Below, one piece after another: positions 3,952 through 59,516 of a stretch of 64,000 nt of DNA (its first letter is position 1; every line of letters begins with the position of its first letter). The stretch lies in IMG/VR virus record IMGVR_UViG_3300020213_000027, positions 1 through 64,000 of that record; one strand, written 5' to 3'. The DNA is from a virus. A program made the translations under genes and the position numbers. The notes beneath the pieces are model-generated. The model was not told the origin of the DNA, did no database searches, and saw only the letters and a program-made list of their open reading frames with translations.

Positions 3952-4157
3952 TTTCTATATGCTTTTTTTAATTCAGGACAATGAAAGGACCAATCCTTGA
4001 TATTCCAACTATTTGACTCTTTTCGATAAGCTTTACCATTTTGTGGAGCTTCATCTTCGGGTTTGTTTCTGACAGCTCGATTTGCTTTTCTTTTAGGAAA
4101 TTTCGTACTTCCATTTTGTTGATCAGTAAAATAGGGTTTTTTTCTACTTCTACTCAT
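3948..4157 (-). CDS. SRSRKK-type small phage protein
   Basis: 69 residues, strongly basic, starting MSRSRKKPYFTDQQ and ending SWNIKDWSFHCPELKKAYRK. I recognise the SRSRKK start and the KRxANRxVR middle as a widespread small phage protein, but no function is known to me. It overlaps its neighbours at both ends, showing tight translational coupling inside the late operon. Confidence 0.65.
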   Translation of the reverse strand: MSRSRKKPYFTDQQNGSTKFPKRKANRAVRNKPEDEAPQNGKAYRKESNSWNIKDWSFHCPELKKAYRK

Positions 4158-4329
4158 CTTCTGATCTAAAAATATTAGTAACTACTTCAAAATGTCTATA
4201 ATCTTCCCAAATCATAGAAACAAAGACCTGTATACAAATAGAATTTTCGAATACATCTAATACAAAATAATAATTAGAATCTAGATCTTTATATCTTGCT
4301 TGAACAATATCACCACGTTTAATGTACAT
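4150..4329 (-). CDS. Small GD-type (SH3-like) protein
   Basis: 59 residues from the ATG at 4329, chosen because MYIKRGDIVQARY matches the start of at least eight similar small proteins in this window; a longer reading begins at 4347. The pattern is a K-x-GD-IV strand, alternating beta residues and a C-terminal NIFRSEDE, as expected for a small SH3-like barrel. Function unknown. It is the only clear member in the late block; the rest are in the plus-strand half. Confidence 0.6.
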   Translation of the reverse strand: MYIKRGDIVQARYKDLDSNYYFVLDVFENSICIQVFVSMIWEDYRHFEVVTNIFRSEDE

Positions 4330-4707: not shown

Positions 4708-6108
4708 CTAGATATCAAATTTCCACACATATCCTTTATAAGATCTCTTATATTTAATAGCTTGTCCAATATTACTATTTTGAAATCCGGCCTCTTTAGC
4801 TTTAATAGCTGAGTTAAATTTAATAACTTCATTAGTTTCATTATGGGTGCCAATTACGGCTTTAGAATTCATTTTGGAAGTCTGTAGGCGTCTTTCAGGA
4901 CGTTTAGAAGCTTCACCACCAGCTATTGCACCAGGAAGTCTAGAAGCGTTATATTCCGCTTCTGGAAGAAGAGGAGAGGGATTTTCTTGTTTCCATATAG
5001 TAGATATGACATATCGACATTTTTTGCAATAGCAATCAAAAACATTTCTATCCTCTAAAAAAGTATAATTTTGTAGTTCTTTATATTTGAAACACTTAGA
5101 ACACTCTCTATTTTCTATATTATCAATAAGTTTATTAATTTTTGGTATTTTCATTCCAATAGGAAGTTTTTGAGGATTTATTTTGTGGTATTGTGCTCTA
5201 ATTTGCGATAATTTTTCTTTTGTTTCTTCTGAATGGATGTAACCTTGCGTTCCTTCGCCTCCTTCTGTTTCGTTTGTTAGATCATTTCCAAGATCATTAT
5301 AGTATTTAATCCAAAATGTTTCTTTATCATTTAATAAATCATAATTAAATACGTTCTCTATCACTATAACTTTAGGTTTTAGTTGTTGATTATATAAGGA
5401 TTTAATCCAATTTTGTTTTCTATTGTGCCCTTCTAAAGAAGAAGGTTTAAAATGTTCATAAGGTCTATTTAAACCTGTTGTAGATTTGCCGACATATCTA
5501 ATCACAGATGTTAAAGGATCTTGTAATCCGTATATTATATTTAATGAAGTTTCTTTTAAATAAAAGACAAACTTATATTTTTGTAACTCTAGTATTTTAA
5601 GGAGGTTTTCTAACTTTGCTTGTTCTATTTCTTTTCTATTATTCTTTTTTGCCCTGTCCCAAACTTGTTTTTTATGTATTCTATTTTTATCTACATCTTC
5701 ATAATGATAATTTTCTGGAGTTTTTCCCAAATACTTAAAATTACTAGCTTTATAAACTGTTCCGACATGATTTTGAGTAGGATCTGCAAAAGTAACAATT
5801 GAATCATAATCTGTATTTATTTTAAGCCATCTTAGACATTTAGAAATAAAATAGGATTCAGAATTTTTTGGTGTGTCATCTATCAATACTAGTCTATTTA
5901 ATTCAATAGTTTTATATCCTTTAGGAACACGAATATTTTGTCTAGAAGGATTAGAAAAAGTACATACACCAAGTACTTGATTATTTAATTTTAATAAAAA
6001 ACCATAGCGTATAGACCCAGATTTTTTAGTATAGTGATTCTGTTTAATAAAATCTCTACAAATATTTTTGTTCGTGTCTAATTCAATTATAAAATCTTTT
6101 ATCTTCAT
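4708..6108 (-). CDS. mom: Mom-like DNA modification protein fused to GIY-YIG endonuclease
   Basis: 466 residues with two distinct parts. Residues 1 to about 170 resemble the Mom family, a GNAT-like fold that modifies adenine in phage DNA: IELNRLVLIDDTPKNSESYF, then ADPTQNHVGTVYKASNFKYL. From about 190 the sequence becomes a homing-endonuclease module: IYGLQDPLTSVIRYVGKS is the GIY-YIG core, followed by an NUMOD3-like helix (HSEETKEKLSQIRAQ), a four-cysteine zinc knuckle (ECSKCFKY, CYCKKC) and a C-terminal NUMOD-like repeat ending YKGYVWKFDI. A G+C-richer segment (about 4880-4985) separates the last two. It could be a true fusion or a homing gene caught after invading mom. The Mom assignment is by motif recognition; whether phage DNA is modified is unknown. 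Confidence 0.7.
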   Translation of the reverse strand: MKIKDFIIELDTNKNICRDFIKQNHYTKKSGSIRYGFLLKLNNQVLGVCTFSNPSRQNIRVPKGYKTIELNRLVLIDDTPKNSESYFISKCLRWLKINTDYDSIVTFADPTQNHVGTVYKASNFKYLGKTPENYHYEDVDKNRIHKKQVWDRAKKNNRKEIEQAKLENLLKILELQKYKFVFYLKETSLNIIYGLQDPLTSVIRYVGKSTTGLNRPYEHFKPSSLEGHNRKQNWIKSLYNQQLKPKVIVIENVFNYDLLNDKETFWIKYYNDLGNDLTNETEGGEGTQGYIHSEETKEKLSQIRAQYHKINPQKLPIGMKIPKINKLIDNIENRECSKCFKYKELQNYTFLEDRNVFDCYCKKCRYVISTIWKQENPSPLLPEAEYNASRLPGAIAGGEASKRPERRLQTSKMNSKAVIGTHNETNEVIKFNSAIKAKEAGFQNSNIGQAIKYKRSYKGYVWKFDI

Positions 6109-26931: not shown

Positions 26932-28221
26932 ATGAGTGAACAAGAAGTTCCAATTTCAGATGATGAGAAAAAGAAAGCTTTACAATCAGCTATATTTCAT
27001 CTTAGTAATCAACAACCATTCTATGGAAGTTTAGTTCAAGAAATAACTGTAAAATATACTACTTTTATTCCAACTGCTGGCATAACTTATAATGTAAAAC
27101 AGCATCAATATGAAATTTATATCAATCCTTATTTTTTTCATAGTCTAACTACTGAGGAAAGAGTTGCTGTTTTTCACCATGAGATCCTCCATTTCACTAA
27201 TAAACACCTATTTCGATTACCTTTTACTGATGGGACAATTAGTAATGAAGATAAAAAGCTATATAACATAGCTGGTGATATGGCTATTAACCAATATATT
27301 ACAGGACTTCCAAAAGGTGGTGTTGAGGTAAAAGATTGGAAAATGAGTAATGGTTCCCCATTTGAACAGTACCAAAATATGGAATATTATTATGACTTGA
27401 TCAAAGAAGAATCAAAGAAGCAGCAGAAGAATAAAGATGGTGATGAACCTGGTGAGCAATCAAAAGACGGTAATGAAGAATCTAAAGGAACTAAAGGCAA
27501 CGTTCATGAGCAGTTAGATAAATATAAAGAATTTGATAGACATTTCTGGGATAGTTTGGATGAAGAAACTAAAAAGAAGATGTTAGAAGAAGCTAAGAAG
27601 ATTATTAAGCGTACTATAGAAAAGACTTCTTTTAGTCATAGTGTAGTTCCTGATAGTATTAAAGATCTATTATCTGAAATTGATTCTCTATCAGCCTCTA
27701 TTAACTATAAACAAATTCTTAAAAATACTATTAAACGAACTATATCTTGTGTTGATAGAGAAAGAACATGGAAGAAACCTAATAAGCGATATGGAGCTTA
27801 TAGTCCTGGAACCAAGGTAGGATCTCTTCCTAAATGCGCATTCTTTAATGATAGCAGTGGAAGTATTTCTATTAAAGAACAAAATGAATATCTTAGAATG
27901 ATGGATGAATTCCTAAAAGTAGGAACTAGAAGTTGTACTCTAGGATTTTGGCATACTTCTCTTTATTATAAAAAACCATATAAACGTGGAATAGAGCTTG
28001 ATCAAGAGGCTTTACAATCAGGTGGAACTGATGTAAGATGTGTATTGGAAGACATTAAAAAGAATAATTATAATCTTTCAATTATTTTTACAGACGGTTA
28101 TTATGATAATGTTGATATTAAATTAACTAATGAAATTATATGGATCATATCAAAAGATGGAAATTTAGATCATCCTTTAAAACATTTAGGTAAAACTATA
28201 GAATTGGATAAAATTAAATGA
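26932..28221 (+). CDS. VWA-domain protein with HExxH metallopeptidase-like region
   Basis: 429 residues resembling the DUF2201 group. The N-terminal domain has FHHEILHF (His83, Glu84, His87), a zinc HExxH site. A charged linker (about 165-205) follows. The C-terminal VWA-like domain has the metal-ion-dependent adhesion site FNDSSGSI and later SGGTDV and IIFTDGYYD. Paired with the MoxR ATPase, it forms a known ATPase/VWA cassette. Its stop overlaps the next start. Confidence 0.8.
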   Translation: MSEQEVPISDDEKKKALQSAIFHLSNQQPFYGSLVQEITVKYTTFIPTAGITYNVKQHQYEIYINPYFFHSLTTEERVAVFHHEILHFTNKHLFRLPFTDGTISNEDKKLYNIAGDMAINQYITGLPKGGVEVKDWKMSNGSPFEQYQNMEYYYDLIKEESKKQQKNKDGDEPGEQSKDGNEESKGTKGNVHEQLDKYKEFDRHFWDSLDEETKKKMLEEAKKIIKRTIEKTSFSHSVVPDSIKDLLSEIDSLSASINYKQILKNTIKRTISCVDRERTWKKPNKRYGAYSPGTKVGSLPKCAFFNDSSGSISIKEQNEYLRMMDEFLKVGTRSCTLGFWHTSLYYKKPYKRGIELDQEALQSGGTDVRCVLEDIKKNNYNLSIIFTDGYYDNVDIKLTNEIIWIISKDGNLDHPLKHLGKTIELDKIK

Positions 28222-40585: not shown

Positions 40586-43309
40586 ATGTTTCAACCAACA
40601 GGATTTGCTCAAGAGATATTTCGAGATCGTTATGCATTCACTCCAACGGAAACATGGGAACAATGTGCCCTTCGTGTTGCGGAACAAATGGCAAGAGCAG
40701 AAGTTCCAGAGAAACAAAAGATTTACTTAGATAAGTTTTATAATATTTTAGTAAATAACTTCTTTGTTCCTGGAGGAAGAATATTATATAACTCTGGAAG
40801 AAATAATCCTCAACTTTTAAATTGCTTTGTATTAGGTGATAAACTTGATAGTAAAGAAGGTTGGGGAAATGTAGCCAAAGAAATGGTTATCACAAGTATG
40901 ACGGGCGGCGGATGTGGCATTGATTATTCAGATGTGCGTCCTAAAGGTGCTTCTATAACTGGACAGAAAGGCGAATGTCCTGGTCCAGTTGAGCTTATGA
41001 AGCTTGTAGATGGTTGTGCAAAGCCTGTACGTGCAGGAGGCCAAAGGCGAGTCGCCTTAATGTTTAGTCTAGATTTAGACCATCCTGATGTGTTAGAATT
41101 CCTAGATGCCAAATTAGAAAAAGGTATGCTAACTCATGCCAACGTATCTGTACGATCTAAAAAAACTTCCAAATTTATTAAAGCAATTAAGGAAGATGGA
41201 GATTGGGAATTGTCATGGAAAGGCAAATACAAAAAAACTATTAAAGCTAAAGAACTTTGGAATAAAATTGTCCAAAATGCTTATGATTCTGCTGAACCAG
41301 GATTTCTTAATTGGGAATTAGTTTCTAATGAATCAAATATTGGATATGTTGAAGATTTGGTTACTACTAATCCATGTGTTATAGGGGAAACAGAAATATT
41401 AACTAAAGATGGATATACTAGAATTGATAGTCTAGTTAATCAAGAAGTTGAAATTTGGAATGGATTTGAATGGAGTAAAGTTACACCCAAAATTACAGGA
41501 AAAAATCAATCGGTAGTAACTGTTTTATTAAGTAATGGTTTGAGCTTAACTTGCACAGATTACCATAGATTTGAGATAGCTACTAATTATACAGGAAATC
41601 AAAAATCTATCTTAGCAAAAGATTTAGAGCCTGGAATGAAACTTATTAAACATAATTTTCCTATTATAGAACATGGGGCTAATTTACGAGATGCTTATAC
41701 TCAAGGATTTGTGGCAGCAGAAGGAATGGAACTAAATAAAACCTTGTATGTTTATAAACCTAAAGAGATCTGTATAAGTAGATTAGAAGGTATTAAAAAA
41801 TCTAGTTGGGAAGAAAATAATAAAAGATTCAGAATTATATTAAAAGAAATTCCCTATTCTAAAAATTTTGTACCAATTGAATATAATCTAAAATCAAAAT
41901 TAGATTGGCTTGCCGGATTGTTTGATGGTGATGGGTGTGAGCTAAAAGAAGGAGGACTACAATTAGTATCAGTTAATAGATCTTTTTTACTAAATTTACA
42001 AAAATTACTTACTACAGTTGGAATTTCTTCAAAAATATTACTATTTCATTCTGAAGGTATGCGAATGATGCCTAATCATAAGGGAGGCAATCAAGAATAC
42101 TTTTGTAAAGAATCATATAGAATATGTATAGGAGCATTTCAAATACAAGAACTTAAAAAATTAGGATTTAAATGTGAGAGACTAAAATTTGAAAAATCTC
42201 CTAATAGAGACGCTTCTCAATTTGTTACTGTAGTAGATGTTACTGATTCTGGTATAGCCGACACAGTTTATTGTTTCAATGAGCCCTTAAAACATTTAGG
42301 CATTTTTAATGGGATTATAACTGGTCAATGTGGAGAAATTGCTTTATCTTCTTATGATTGTTGTTGTCTTGGCCATCTTGTTTTACCTCGTTTTATTACC
42401 AATTCTAGTATTGATTATGCTTTGCTTGCTGATGTTATTCGTGCTTCAGTTAGATTCTTAGACAATGTCTTAACCGTTAATTCTTATCCTCTTCAAGAAA
42501 TGAGAGATAAATCTCATAAACTTAGAAGAATCGGGCTTGGAACAACAGGACTAGCTGATACGTTAACAATGTTAGGACTTCAATATGGAAGTGAAGAAGG
42601 TAATAAGTTTTTAGATAAACTTTATAGATTCATTTCCAAAATTGCTTATGAGACTTCTGTAATGCTCGCAGTTGAAAAAGGTATGTTTCCGGCATGTGAT
42701 CCCGATAAGCATGTAGAATCTGATTTTATGAGAAGAATGCCTAATAAGATTAGATCTTTAGTTCGTGAACATGGGATTAGAAATTGTGCTATATTAACTC
42801 AAGCTCCAACAGGAACAGTTAGCATTCTTTCAGGAAACTGTAGCTCAGGAATTGAGCCTATGTTTGCTCCAGTATATGAACGTAGATTTTGGAAAGATAA
42901 TGAAAGAAAAATTGAACTTGTATTTCATCCTTTATTTGAACAATATATGAAGCAAGGAAAAGATGTCAGGCATTTTATTGGTTCACACAATCTTTCTGTG
43001 AAGGATCACCTAGAAGTACAGCGTATTGTACAAAACCATGTTGATAATGCAGTTTCAAAAACGATAAATATTCCTAACACTTATTTAATAGAAGATATGG
43101 AAAGACTTTGGTTAAAATATTTGCCATATTTAAAGGGCACCACTTTTTATAGAGAAGGAACTAGAGGATATATTGATGAGAAAGGGGTAGAACACCTACC
43201 TCCATTAACCCCACTTTCTTTAGAAGAAGGTGTTGCCAGATTTAAAGAGTCGCATAAAATCAATTCTGAAACTGTTGATGATTGTATTTCTGGAATTTGT
43301 GAAATATGA
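40586..43309 (+). CDS. nrdJ: Class II (cobalamin) ribonucleotide reductase with intein
   Basis: 907 residues, of which 318 (264-581) are an intein. The extein is an NrdJ-type reductase: MTGGGCGIDYSDVRPKGASI, RAGGQRRVALMFSLDLDHPD, the radical site NPCGE (interrupted by the intein), QAPTGTVSILSG and a C-terminal redox pair CISGIC. It converts ribonucleotides to deoxyribonucleotides using adenosylcobalamin, so needs no oxygen and no small subunit. The intein must splice for activity, since the +1 Cys is the catalytic thiyl Cys of NPCGE. It leads the plus-strand nucleotide and DNA metabolism block. Confidence 0.9.
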   Translation: MFQPTGFAQEIFRDRYAFTPTETWEQCALRVAEQMARAEVPEKQKIYLDKFYNILVNNFFVPGGRILYNSGRNNPQLLNCFVLGDKLDSKEGWGNVAKEMVITSMTGGGCGIDYSDVRPKGASITGQKGECPGPVELMKLVDGCAKPVRAGGQRRVALMFSLDLDHPDVLEFLDAKLEKGMLTHANVSVRSKKTSKFIKAIKEDGDWELSWKGKYKKTIKAKELWNKIVQNAYDSAEPGFLNWELVSNESNIGYVEDLVTTNPCVIGETEILTKDGYTRIDSLVNQEVEIWNGFEWSKVTPKITGKNQSVVTVLLSNGLSLTCTDYHRFEIATNYTGNQKSILAKDLEPGMKLIKHNFPIIEHGANLRDAYTQGFVAAEGMELNKTLYVYKPKEICISRLEGIKKSSWEENNKRFRIILKEIPYSKNFVPIEYNLKSKLDWLAGLFDGDGCELKEGGLQLVSVNRSFLLNLQKLLTTVGISSKILLFHSEGMRMMPNHKGGNQEYFCKESYRICIGAFQIQELKKLGFKCERLKFEKSPNRDASQFVTVVDVTDSGIADTVYCFNEPLKHLGIFNGIITGQCGEIALSSYDCCCLGHLVLPRFITNSSIDYALLADVIRASVRFLDNVLTVNSYPLQEMRDKSHKLRRIGLGTTGLADTLTMLGLQYGSEEGNKFLDKLYRFISKIAYETSVMLAVEKGMFPACDPDKHVESDFMRRMPNKIRSLVREHGIRNCAILTQAPTGTVSILSGNCSSGIEPMFAPVYERRFWKDNERKIELVFHPLFEQYMKQGKDVRHFIGSHNLSVKDHLEVQRIVQNHVDNAVSKTINIPNTYLIEDMERLWLKYLPYLKGTTFYREGTRGYIDEKGVEHLPPLTPLSLEEGVARFKESHKINSETVDDCISGICEI
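41375..42328 (+). other. LAGLIDADG-bearing intein in NrdJ
   Basis: 318 residues from Cys1 (CVIGETEILTKDGYTRI) to a C-terminal Gln (FNGIITGQ) before Cys. Block B LTCTDYHRF is present. The endonuclease has two dodecapeptide-like motifs, AYTQGFVAAEG and LDWLAGLFDGDG, so homing activity may be intact. A final Gln instead of Asn and Gly instead of the penultimate His are unusual but recur in inteins at this site. Confidence 0.9.
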
Positions 43310-57580: not shown

Positions 57581-57897
57581 AGGCAAAAGATTTTAATAAA
57601 ATTATTCCTTCTCATGTAAGGATTACTAAAGACATTACCTATGAAGTCGTCTGGCTTGATGATTTTATTGATAAAAAACAATTAGGTGAATGTCGATATA
57701 ATGAGAAGCAAATAGTTATCAAGAAAAATCAATCCAATTCAGAGAGTATGTCGACCTTCATTCATGAGGCTCTACACGCCGTTTCCTTTGAAACTAAAGG
57801 TTTGAATCTTACAGAAGGACAAGTGTATAAATTAGAAAGATCTTTATTTAGAATGCTAAAATTAAATAATATATTTGATTTGTTTGATAGAAAGTAG
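57577..57897 (+). CDS. Small HExxH metallopeptidase-like protein
   Basis: 106 residues from a GTG. MSTFIHEALHAVSFETKGLN has the zinc HExxH helix of the ImmA/SprT-like group of small phage proteins. No other domain. Could cleave a repressor or host protein; unknown. The next promoter overlaps its end. Confidence 0.65.
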   Translation: MKAKDFNKIIPSHVRITKDITYEVVWLDDFIDKKQLGECRYNEKQIVIKKNQSNSESMSTFIHEALHAVSFETKGLNLTEGQVYKLERSLFRMLKLNNIFDLFDRK

Positions 57898-57910: not shown

Positions 57911-58849
57911 ATGAATTCAGAATGTCCTATTTGTAAAACTTTAATCATTAATAAACCTTCAATATGGAAAAAACTTAAAGGTTTATCAACGTGCTCAAGA
58001 AAATGTCGAGGAGAATACCTTAGAAGTTACTATAGAGGAAATAAAAATCCCAATAGTAAATATCAAACTAATATTGCTAAGTTTTTTGGTTATAAAACTC
58101 TTGAAATACGATCTTCAGCAAAAAAAAGAAAATTAGAATGTAATATAACAGACAATTTCTTAGAATTGCTGTTTAATAAGCAAAATGGTTTATGTTATTA
58201 TACTAGTGTCCCATTAAAATTGGTATCTAATAAAGAAACTTTTAAAGGACTTAATCAGCCAGATTTGGATGTACTTTCTGTAGATAGAATTAATAGTAGT
58301 TTAGGATATTTAGAAAATAATGTAGTATTAGCTTGTAATGCTGTTAATAAAATGAAAGGTAGTTCTTCAGAAATTGATTTTAAAAATTTTCTTAATTTTA
58401 CAAATTTACAAAAAAGTGGGTGTCTTTTACAAGTTAAAAAATTAACAAGTGATGCTCTATTACCCCAAAAAAATAAATTGGGGGATGTAGGTTATGATTT
58501 ATTTGTACATAAAGTTGAAGATTGTGGAACTTATATTAAAGTTTATTCGGGGATATCAATTCAGCCTACCATAGGATTTTATTTGCAGATGTACCCTAGA
58601 TCTTCAATTTACAAAAGAAATTTATTTTTGGCTAATAGTGTTGGGATATGTGATAATTTATATACTGGAGAATATATGGGTATTTTTTATAAAACAAAAG
58701 ATTATGATCCAGAAAAAGATATTTTTATTAAAGGTGAAAGATTTGCCCAAGTTGTAGTAGCTAAATATGAATTAGTAGAAATTGAAGAAGTCAATAGTCT
58801 TTGGGAAGGTGGAAGAGGCTCTTTAGGTTTCGGTTCTTCGGGAGCTTAA
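57911..58849 (+). CDS. dut: HNH endonuclease fused to dUTPase
   Basis: 312 residues from MNSECPICKT; longer readings start upstream of the promoter. Residues 1-170 are an HNH homing-type nuclease: two zinc Cys pairs (ECPIC, CSRKC) and LSVDRINSSLGYLENNVVLA then CNAVNKMKG. Residues 171-312 are a full dUTPase with all five motifs: GDVGYDLFV, PRSSIYKRN, GICDNLYTGEYMG, GERFAQVVV and GGRGSLGFGSSG. The junction SGCLLQVKKLTSDALLP has no Met, so dUTPase can only be made as the fusion unless a non-standard start or processing is used. It removes dUTP and supplies dUMP to ThyX. Confidence 0.85.
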   Translation: MNSECPICKTLIINKPSIWKKLKGLSTCSRKCRGEYLRSYYRGNKNPNSKYQTNIAKFFGYKTLEIRSSAKKRKLECNITDNFLELLFNKQNGLCYYTSVPLKLVSNKETFKGLNQPDLDVLSVDRINSSLGYLENNVVLACNAVNKMKGSSSEIDFKNFLNFTNLQKSGCLLQVKKLTSDALLPQKNKLGDVGYDLFVHKVEDCGTYIKVYSGISIQPTIGFYLQMYPRSSIYKRNLFLANSVGICDNLYTGEYMGIFYKTKDYDPEKDIFIKGERFAQVVVAKYELVEIEEVNSLWEGGRGSLGFGSSGA

Positions 58850-59129: not shown

Positions 59130-59516
59130 ATGGCTAAAAAATTTAATAGAGATGCATGGCTTATGCACCAACTTCGTAGGCTATCCTTAAAATACCCGCC
59201 ACGTATTAGAGCCCTTAATAAGACAAAGACTACTTATTATATCACCTCTAAAAAAGGTACACAAGTTAAACGTGTTTCCTTTACTTGTGAATCTTGTGGA
59301 AAGTCTGGACTAAAGAGTACAGAAAAACAGATGGATCATCACCATCCCGTTTCTGATGAAAGAGGGTTTGTTGATTGGAATTTGTTTCTCATAAATCTTT
59401 TCTGTGAAGAAGATAACTGGTGTACCCTTTGCATACCTTGCCATGAAAAGAAAACTTTAGAAGAAAATACTGAAAGATTTCTTTTCAATAAAAAAACAGT
59501 TGACAAAACTAAATAG
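59130..59516 (+). CDS. HNH-family nuclease-like protein
   Basis: 128 residues. FTCESCGKSGLKSTEKQMDH, HHPVSDERGFVDWNLFLINL and CTLCIPCHEKKTLEENTERF give the CxxC...DHxxP...CxxCHxxK form of HNH proteins (phage type). Such proteins near packaging genes aid terminase; here it lies among nucleotide genes and may be a free-standing endonuclease. Immediately follows the zinc-ribbon gene. Confidence 0.7.
   Translation: MAKKFNRDAWLMHQLRRLSLKYPPRIRALNKTKTTYYITSKKGTQVKRVSFTCESCGKSGLKSTEKQMDHHHPVSDERGFVDWNLFLINLFCEEDNWCTLCIPCHEKKTLEENTERFLFNKKTVDKTK

Follow-up and report, generated by a model that had tools for sequence, protein, structure and literature searches.

An in-frame fusion of a PacI-like HNH nuclease gene to a phage dUTPase gene, probably from a homing-type lineage that settles before dut

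Here, we report a phage gene in which an HNH nuclease, a DNA-cutting enzyme of a kind able to spread as a selfish gene, and a dUTPase, a DNA-protecting enzyme, share one uninterrupted reading frame. The gene lies within positions 1 to 64,000 (hereafter the window, 64,000 nt) of IMGVR_UViG_3300020213_000027, a 79.8 kb record of an uncultured phage. We consider it probable that a free-standing PacI-type HNH gene of homing type, belonging to a lineage that inserts directly upstream of phage dUTPase genes, became translationally fused to the dUTPase by loss of the nuclease stop codon together with loss of the dUTPase start codon. The product would most likely be a single bifunctional polypeptide that escapes processing and forms a dUTPase-driven trimer bearing three N-terminal HNH domains; it would remove dUTP and would still be able to nick or cut DNA. 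We propose that the nuclease is retained because its deletion would take away the only good start codon of the dUTPase.

The gene and its parts are located as follows, in positions of the window.
57911..58849, + strand: HNH-dUTPase fusion gene, 312 aa plus stop, ATG start, single frame without internal stop
57923..58006, + strand: zinc module C5-x2-C8 ... C28-x3-C32, from alignments
58181..58357, + strand: HNH core, residues 91-149 (Q91, C95, S123-D125-R126, Y133, N137, N146, K149), from alignments and the PacI match
58352..58354, + strand: ATG at residue 148, the sole ATG, GTG or TTG codon close to the seam from which a free dUTPase could start with its first strand intact
58415..58426, + strand: seam, residues 169-172, from the last HNH helix (ends at 168) to the first dUTPase strand (starts at 173), from models
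58427..58846, + strand: dUTPase domain, residues 173-312, from Pfam, solved dUTPases, alignment and model
58481..58510, + strand: dUTPase motif I (GDVGYDL...), from the alignment, borders by eye
58595..58606, + strand: dUTPase motif II (PRSS), from the alignment, borders by eye
58643..58672, + strand: dUTPase motif III (GICDNLYTGE), from the alignment, borders by eye; divergent, with Asp and Tyr kept
58733..58750, + strand: dUTPase motif IV (GERFAQ), from the alignment, borders by eye
58814..58843, + strand: dUTPase motif V (RGSLGFGSSG), from the alignment, borders by eye

The original prediction, made from the letters of this DNA, described an HNH domain in frame with a complete dUTPase, and this description holds: the frame is 312 codons long and free of stops, both domains are matched, and the dUTPase half keeps all 12 columns that are invariant in a 43-row dUTPase alignment. 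Were translation to begin at a TTG at 57875, the protein would be 12 aa longer and its gene would overlap the SprT-like gene ending at 57897. The dUTPase of the fusion is the only one found in the 79.8-kb record, which is classed as linear and may be a fragment; neither another PF00692 match nor any PF08761 match was found there. A group I intron around the fusion gene was sought within the window with Rfam, and none matched at the gathering threshold. An intein-type insertion inside a host protein is ruled against, the HNH domain being N-terminal and the dUTPase uninterrupted. The GC content is 25.4% in the HNH DNA, 30.2% in the dUTPase DNA and 32.4% in the window, and the gap between the two halves is a weak hint of separate origins. 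A further HNH gene (59130-59516, + strand; PF01844, 7.2e-6) is the second gene downstream of the fusion.

The second half of the protein is recognized as a dUTPase by several routes. Residues 184-311 match PF00692 over profile positions 5-129 of 129 (3.4e-12, 46.7 bits against a cut-off of 22), PHROG 135 is also matched, and solved dUTPases align from residue 173. All five dUTPase motifs are present as had been claimed, motif III being partly divergent, and the QVKKL N-terminus said to be preserved right after the junction is found at residues 174-178. The dUTPase piece was modelled apart, since its ten-residue means of 32-56 within the full-length model are unreliable; modelled alone, it reached a pLDDT of 88 and a TM score of 0.78 to 8hrv. 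For NCBIfam TIGR00576 (cut-off 102.55 bits), the window protein stays below the cut-off at 73.7 bits, whereas two fusions from other contigs, L097 and L114, score above it at 133.3 and 137.6. This low score, together with a tree branch of 2.2, marks the window dUTPase as divergent, so its function could be weakened.

The first half (residues 1-168) is best described as a PacI-like HNH nuclease with an N-terminal zinc module. It matches PHROG 1035 'endonuclease VII' (2.8e-19), PHROG 3322 (6e-19) and PHROG 3118 (4.9e-14), and no Pfam family was found for the first 173 residues alone at E up to 1. Residues C5, C32, Q91, C95, S123, D125, Y133, N137 and N146 are identical in 36 of 36 rows, namely the window and 35 other HNH-bearing rows. 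The HNH model has a pLDDT of 89-98 over residues 1-40, 61-100 and 121-160, with lower values at 41-60 and 101-120. Among VIA structural matches, PacI scores highest (Z 8.6, 114 residues, rmsd 4.4), a Z near 8 being close to the level that unrelated models reach. Some axonemal, threonylcarbamoyladenosine dehydratase and Cas9 chains in the VIA list, which at 5 to 7.6 come fairly close to PacI, were set aside. A comparison of the HNH profile with PacI aligned the DR...GY...N...N..K stretch (E 0.0046, domain 0.016). With the full-length model, Foldseek gave no PDB match at E of 0.001 or less; its top two rows are HNH nucleases (1.6e-2, and PacI at 2.5e-2).

According to the models, two complete domains are linked by about four residues. 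The first dUTPase strand begins at residue 11 of the modelled piece that starts at 58397, that is, at residue 173. On the HNH side, the final helix stops at residue 168, and aligned stand-alone relatives terminate near this column, so the seam is end to end on both sides. The claim that no Met stands at the junction also holds, as no in-frame ATG, GTG or TTG occurs between residues 148 and 190; those closest to the seam are the ATG of residue 148, which still belongs to the HNH domain, and a TTG at residue 190, downstream of the first dUTPase strand.

These start codons bear on whether a free dUTPase is made beside the full-length protein, either by initiation at the ATG of residue 148 or through proteolysis, in which case the dUTPase would not be truly tied to the nuclease. 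The ATG is suitably placed, 25 codons ahead of the dUTPase domain. Nevertheless, no Shine-Dalgarno (SD)-like sequence was seen by eye before it, whereas one precedes 25 of the 60 mechanically called ORFs in the window that begin with ATG and are 100 aa or longer (against 9% of random positions), and the other two fusions offer few or no start codons at their seams: L097 has no in-frame ATG, GTG or TTG between residues 171 and 253, and L114 has only TTG 201 and GTG 235 in frame near its seam. The SD argument is weakened by the start at 57911, before which no clear SD was seen by eye either. On balance, we regard two products as unlikely and a single bifunctional polypeptide as the better reading.

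As far as the sequences tell, the HNH-dUTPase fusion is recurrent rather than unique. IMG/VR was searched with an HNH alignment, of which the best 80 loci of at least 600 stretches were taken, and a second alignment gave 52 loci, with at least five contigs common to both. In-frame fusions are present in L097 (366 aa) and L114 (367 aa), which were re-found as L177, L178, L229 and L230, and their seams lie at the position equivalent to that of the window. Among the HNH frames of the 80 loci L097-L176, only L097, L114 and L165 extend beyond the HNH domain by more than 60 aa, and in two of these three the extension is a dUTPase. Other arrangements were also met: the HNH gene overlaps the dUTPase start by 20 nt in L160, one ORF separates the two genes in L104, L105 and L106, and a same-family HNH gene lies directly downstream of the dUTPase gene in L185 (306-1567). 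Most of the relatives found for the window HNH sit away from any dUTPase. A third search (best 80 loci of at least 600 stretches, mostly matches to an N-terminal ribbon) brought no new dUTPase-linked case, and no HNH of the window's type lay in the stretches of up to 3 kb on each side of the best 80 dUTPase loci of at least 600 stretches; the arrangement therefore appears to be rare. The window fusion, used as a single-protein query, found no relative in IMG/VR or in the genome collection; DNA polymerase as bait gave no relative of its contig, the fusion alignment nothing in the genome collection, and a DNA pattern spanning the HNH and dUTPase motif I no match. A DNA pattern for the clade found only the L097 and L114 contigs plus L311, whose 4.1 kb contain no dUTPase.

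Two further observations came from these loci. The dUTPase gene of L104 (3610-4374), like that of L105, is split inside motif III by a group I intron (RF00028, 71.2 bits, 4117-4327) with an ORF that is HNH-like by eye; in the closely related L106 the gene is uninterrupted. A same-family nuclease lies between similar neighbours in each of the contigs L098, L099, L101 and L113 and may represent a fixed insertion.

The additional fusions help to judge whether the window gene is a decaying passenger, or two neighbour genes read as one through an assembly or sequencing error. The window comes from a single metagenomic contig and its dUTPase is divergent, as such an account would have it; against this, two other contigs carry fusions with an equivalent seam, and the alignment-invariant columns are kept in both halves. 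We therefore hold decay or error to be very improbable and a genuine fusion to be the reading to pursue.

Comparison of L097 with L114 indicates that both enzyme halves are kept under constraint. Their identity is 46% in the N-terminal ribbon, about 62% in the HNH and about 58% in the dUTPase; the corresponding nonsynonymous proportions are 0.37, 0.28 and 0.31, and the synonymous proportions, which are saturated, are 0.75, 0.82 and 0.76. Owing to this saturation, dN/dS is not given. Preservation of both halves would also suit a domesticated bifunctional enzyme, whose HNH domain no longer homes and instead serves the phage by competitor exclusion, host DNA cutting or dUTP-gated cutting, the fusion itself being selected. 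All three fusions share D125, R126, N137 and N146 in the HNH as well as the principal dUTPase motif residues, and in HK97 co-option of a nuclease beside the terminase has been suggested (PMC10448857). The same constraint, however, is expected of an active homing element, and the PADLOC defence models returned no match. We judge domestication to be rather unlikely, and continue with a homing-type gene captured in a fusion.

Cultured phages display the unfused states. A tblastn search of the fusion against 50,697 phage records matched 256, and only Acinetobacter phage XC1 (OQ547903) was covered over more than 80% in one place. In XC1, the HNH gene is separate (annotated 'hypothetical protein'), and its TAA is followed at once by the dUTPase ATG in the same frame. 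In LZ35, an Obolenskvirus like XC1, two bases separate the upstream gene from the dUTPase ATG, and the 4.5 kb around the dUTPase contain no HNH of the window's type. With the HNH alone as query, 98 phage records were matched; of the 60 matches listed, XC1 comes top and has the lowest E (3e-14). H81 (MT837372), considered as a second fusion, turned out to be a plain dUTPase.

Before the insertion, XC1 and LZ35 are 97% identical in two 60-column windows and 86% identical over the last 44 compared columns, with three windows at 47-61% farther upstream; after it, the first two dUTPase windows are at 70% and 67%, followed by 83%, 97% and a mosaic of 57-91%. The two dUTPases are 82% identical. Co-conversion was considered from these identities and set aside, since the mosaic extends over a wider region and is by itself no demonstration. 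Comparing related phages for the separate gene had been proposed with the original prediction, and XC1, with its nuclease abutting the dUTPase ATG, and LZ35, without a nuclease there, provide that comparison. The prediction had further stated that the HNH gene landed exactly in front of the dUTPase, which thereby lost its start. By analogy with XC1 and LZ35, and with L097 and L114, such an origin is supported; the empty and filled site pair is observed in XC1 and LZ35 only, and no close relative was found that shows the pre-insertion site of the window's own lineage, for which insertion is thus probable by analogy.

A first 83-row alignment, in which dUTPases had been placed on the HNH domain, was discarded. 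The HNH tree comprises 115 rows trimmed to their last 150 residues (135 columns). ORFs whose E exceeded 1e-8 or whose match stopped short of profile position 150 were excluded, as were duplicates, L105, and L177 and L178 as copies; the AU test on this tree used 47 of the 115 rows, those nearest to the window and the labelled ones. The dUTPase trees (96 and 50 rows) left out matches with E above 1e-8 or of less than about 100 residues, the interrupted L104, L105 and copies, and the smaller one also every second unlabelled row. In the HNH tree, XC1, L097 and L114 group together with an SH-aLRT of 97, the window groups with L146 at 86, these five rows at 78 and ten rows at 80. No dUTPase was seen beside the HNH gene in the stretches read for L146 and the other five rows of the ten; the L146 record has a distant dUTPase. 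The placement of the window HNH beside XC1, L097 and L114 at a support of only 78, with the dUTPase-unlinked L146 inside, counts against our preferred explanation, as does its lack of the N-terminal ribbon carried by the other three. A clade of the window, L097, L114 and XC1 is not rejected (p-AU 0.749) and lies 12.4 log units above the quick free tree, and a clade of the window, L097 and L114 alone has a p of 0.571. The seven dut-linked rows require 5 changes on the HNH tree, a number equally low in 4 of 500 shuffles.

In the dUTPase trees, L097 and L114 group at 99 and 97, and the window branch (2.2) is the longest in both, its placement being unsure. A single clade of the three fused dUTPases is not rejected (p 0.396), and both one and two fusion events are possible from these trees. 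A dUTPase clade of XC1, L097 and L114 is 40.5 log units lower and is likewise not rejected (p 0.112), so that separate landings are unproven. We nevertheless consider it likely from the sequence comparisons that a single nuclease lineage has landed more than once, each time in front of a different dut gene.

Other putative mobile or nuclease genes occur in the window. The ribonucleotide reductase large subunit (40586-43309, + strand; 907 aa) contains an apparent intein at about residues 265-580 (borders by eye), which holds a LAGLIDADG match (PF14528, residues 440-484). A second in-frame enzyme-nuclease fusion (4708-6108, - strand) joins a Mom-like domain (PF25680, residues 13-187) to a part that is GIY-YIG-like by eye, with a NUMOD3 match below the Pfam cut-off and PHROG 20162 'HNH endonuclease' at residues 405-464. 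A gene of 429 aa (26932-28221, + strand) matches PHROG 1314 'HNH endonuclease'.

States that are rarely visible together can thus be set side by side: no nuclease (LZ35), a nuclease touching dut (XC1), overlapping it (L160) and fused to it (the window, L097 and L114). They suggest that appropriating the start codon of its neighbour is one way in which a homing-type gene can make itself secure. That nuclease expression has been tied to an essential enzyme, as originally put, is plausible, although a host dUTPase may cover for that of the phage. A bolder reading is that HNH-dUTPases form a distinct, long-lived bifunctional class, in which the trimer would sense or set the uracil-nucleotide state, three HNH domains would cut competitor or host DNA, and dut would serve as both target and anchor, so that a selfish nuclease turned into a phage enzyme without intron or intein; we rate this as quite unlikely. 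With XC1 as a cultured phage, retention, homing and domestication become testable.

The fusion can be compared with several known systems. No earlier report of an HNH-dUTPase fusion was found in titles and abstract beginnings, nor were the terms 'HNH-dUTPase' or 'dUTPase-HNH' found in the literature covered, subscription journals being largely outside this coverage. Phage homing endonuclease genes are reported near terminase, ribonucleotide reductase, polymerase and capsid genes in PMC10448857, which also warns that homing is often not inferable from sequence alone, a warning that applies here. The window HNH resembles R.PacI in fold, as its top structural match, and in the aligned VDR...GY...N...AC..CN..K stretch; the two are only 18% identical, and PacI is an unfused restriction enzyme. 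XC1 has the closest gene order, with the nuclease directly before the dUTPase in the same frame and at the top of the listed phage HNH matches. It differs in the TAA and ATG between the genes and in the extra N-terminal ribbon domain of its nuclease, a domain also present in L097 and L114 and absent from the window HNH.

N-terminal partners on trimeric dUTPases are known from betaretroviruses and baculoviruses. The betaretroviral nucleocapsid-dUTPase is such a fusion, that of Mason-Pfizer virus being a homotrimer of low catalytic efficiency (PMC4531489), and the N-terminus of baculovirus TMK-dUTPase is modelled by its authors as projecting outward (PMC4895240). As such fusions occur, a bifunctional HNH-bearing trimer seems feasible, although their partners are neither nucleases nor homing-type genes. 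The T4 mob genes and Aeh1 mobE are likewise nuclease genes adjoining a nucleotide-metabolism gene: in a T4 review, T4 mobE is described as overlapping the stop codon of nrdA, its upstream neighbour, Aeh1 mobE lies in nrdA, and promoters of downstream genes embedded in endonuclease genes are described as favouring endonuclease retention (PMC2988022). The window HNH differs from the T4 and Aeh1 HNH genes in being PacI-like with an N-terminal zinc module, its homing being putative. Moreover, the T4 and Aeh1 proteins are separate polypeptides, whereas in the window the start codon of dut lies inside the nuclease gene, and the fusion would thereby take the retention logic of the embedded promoter one step further.
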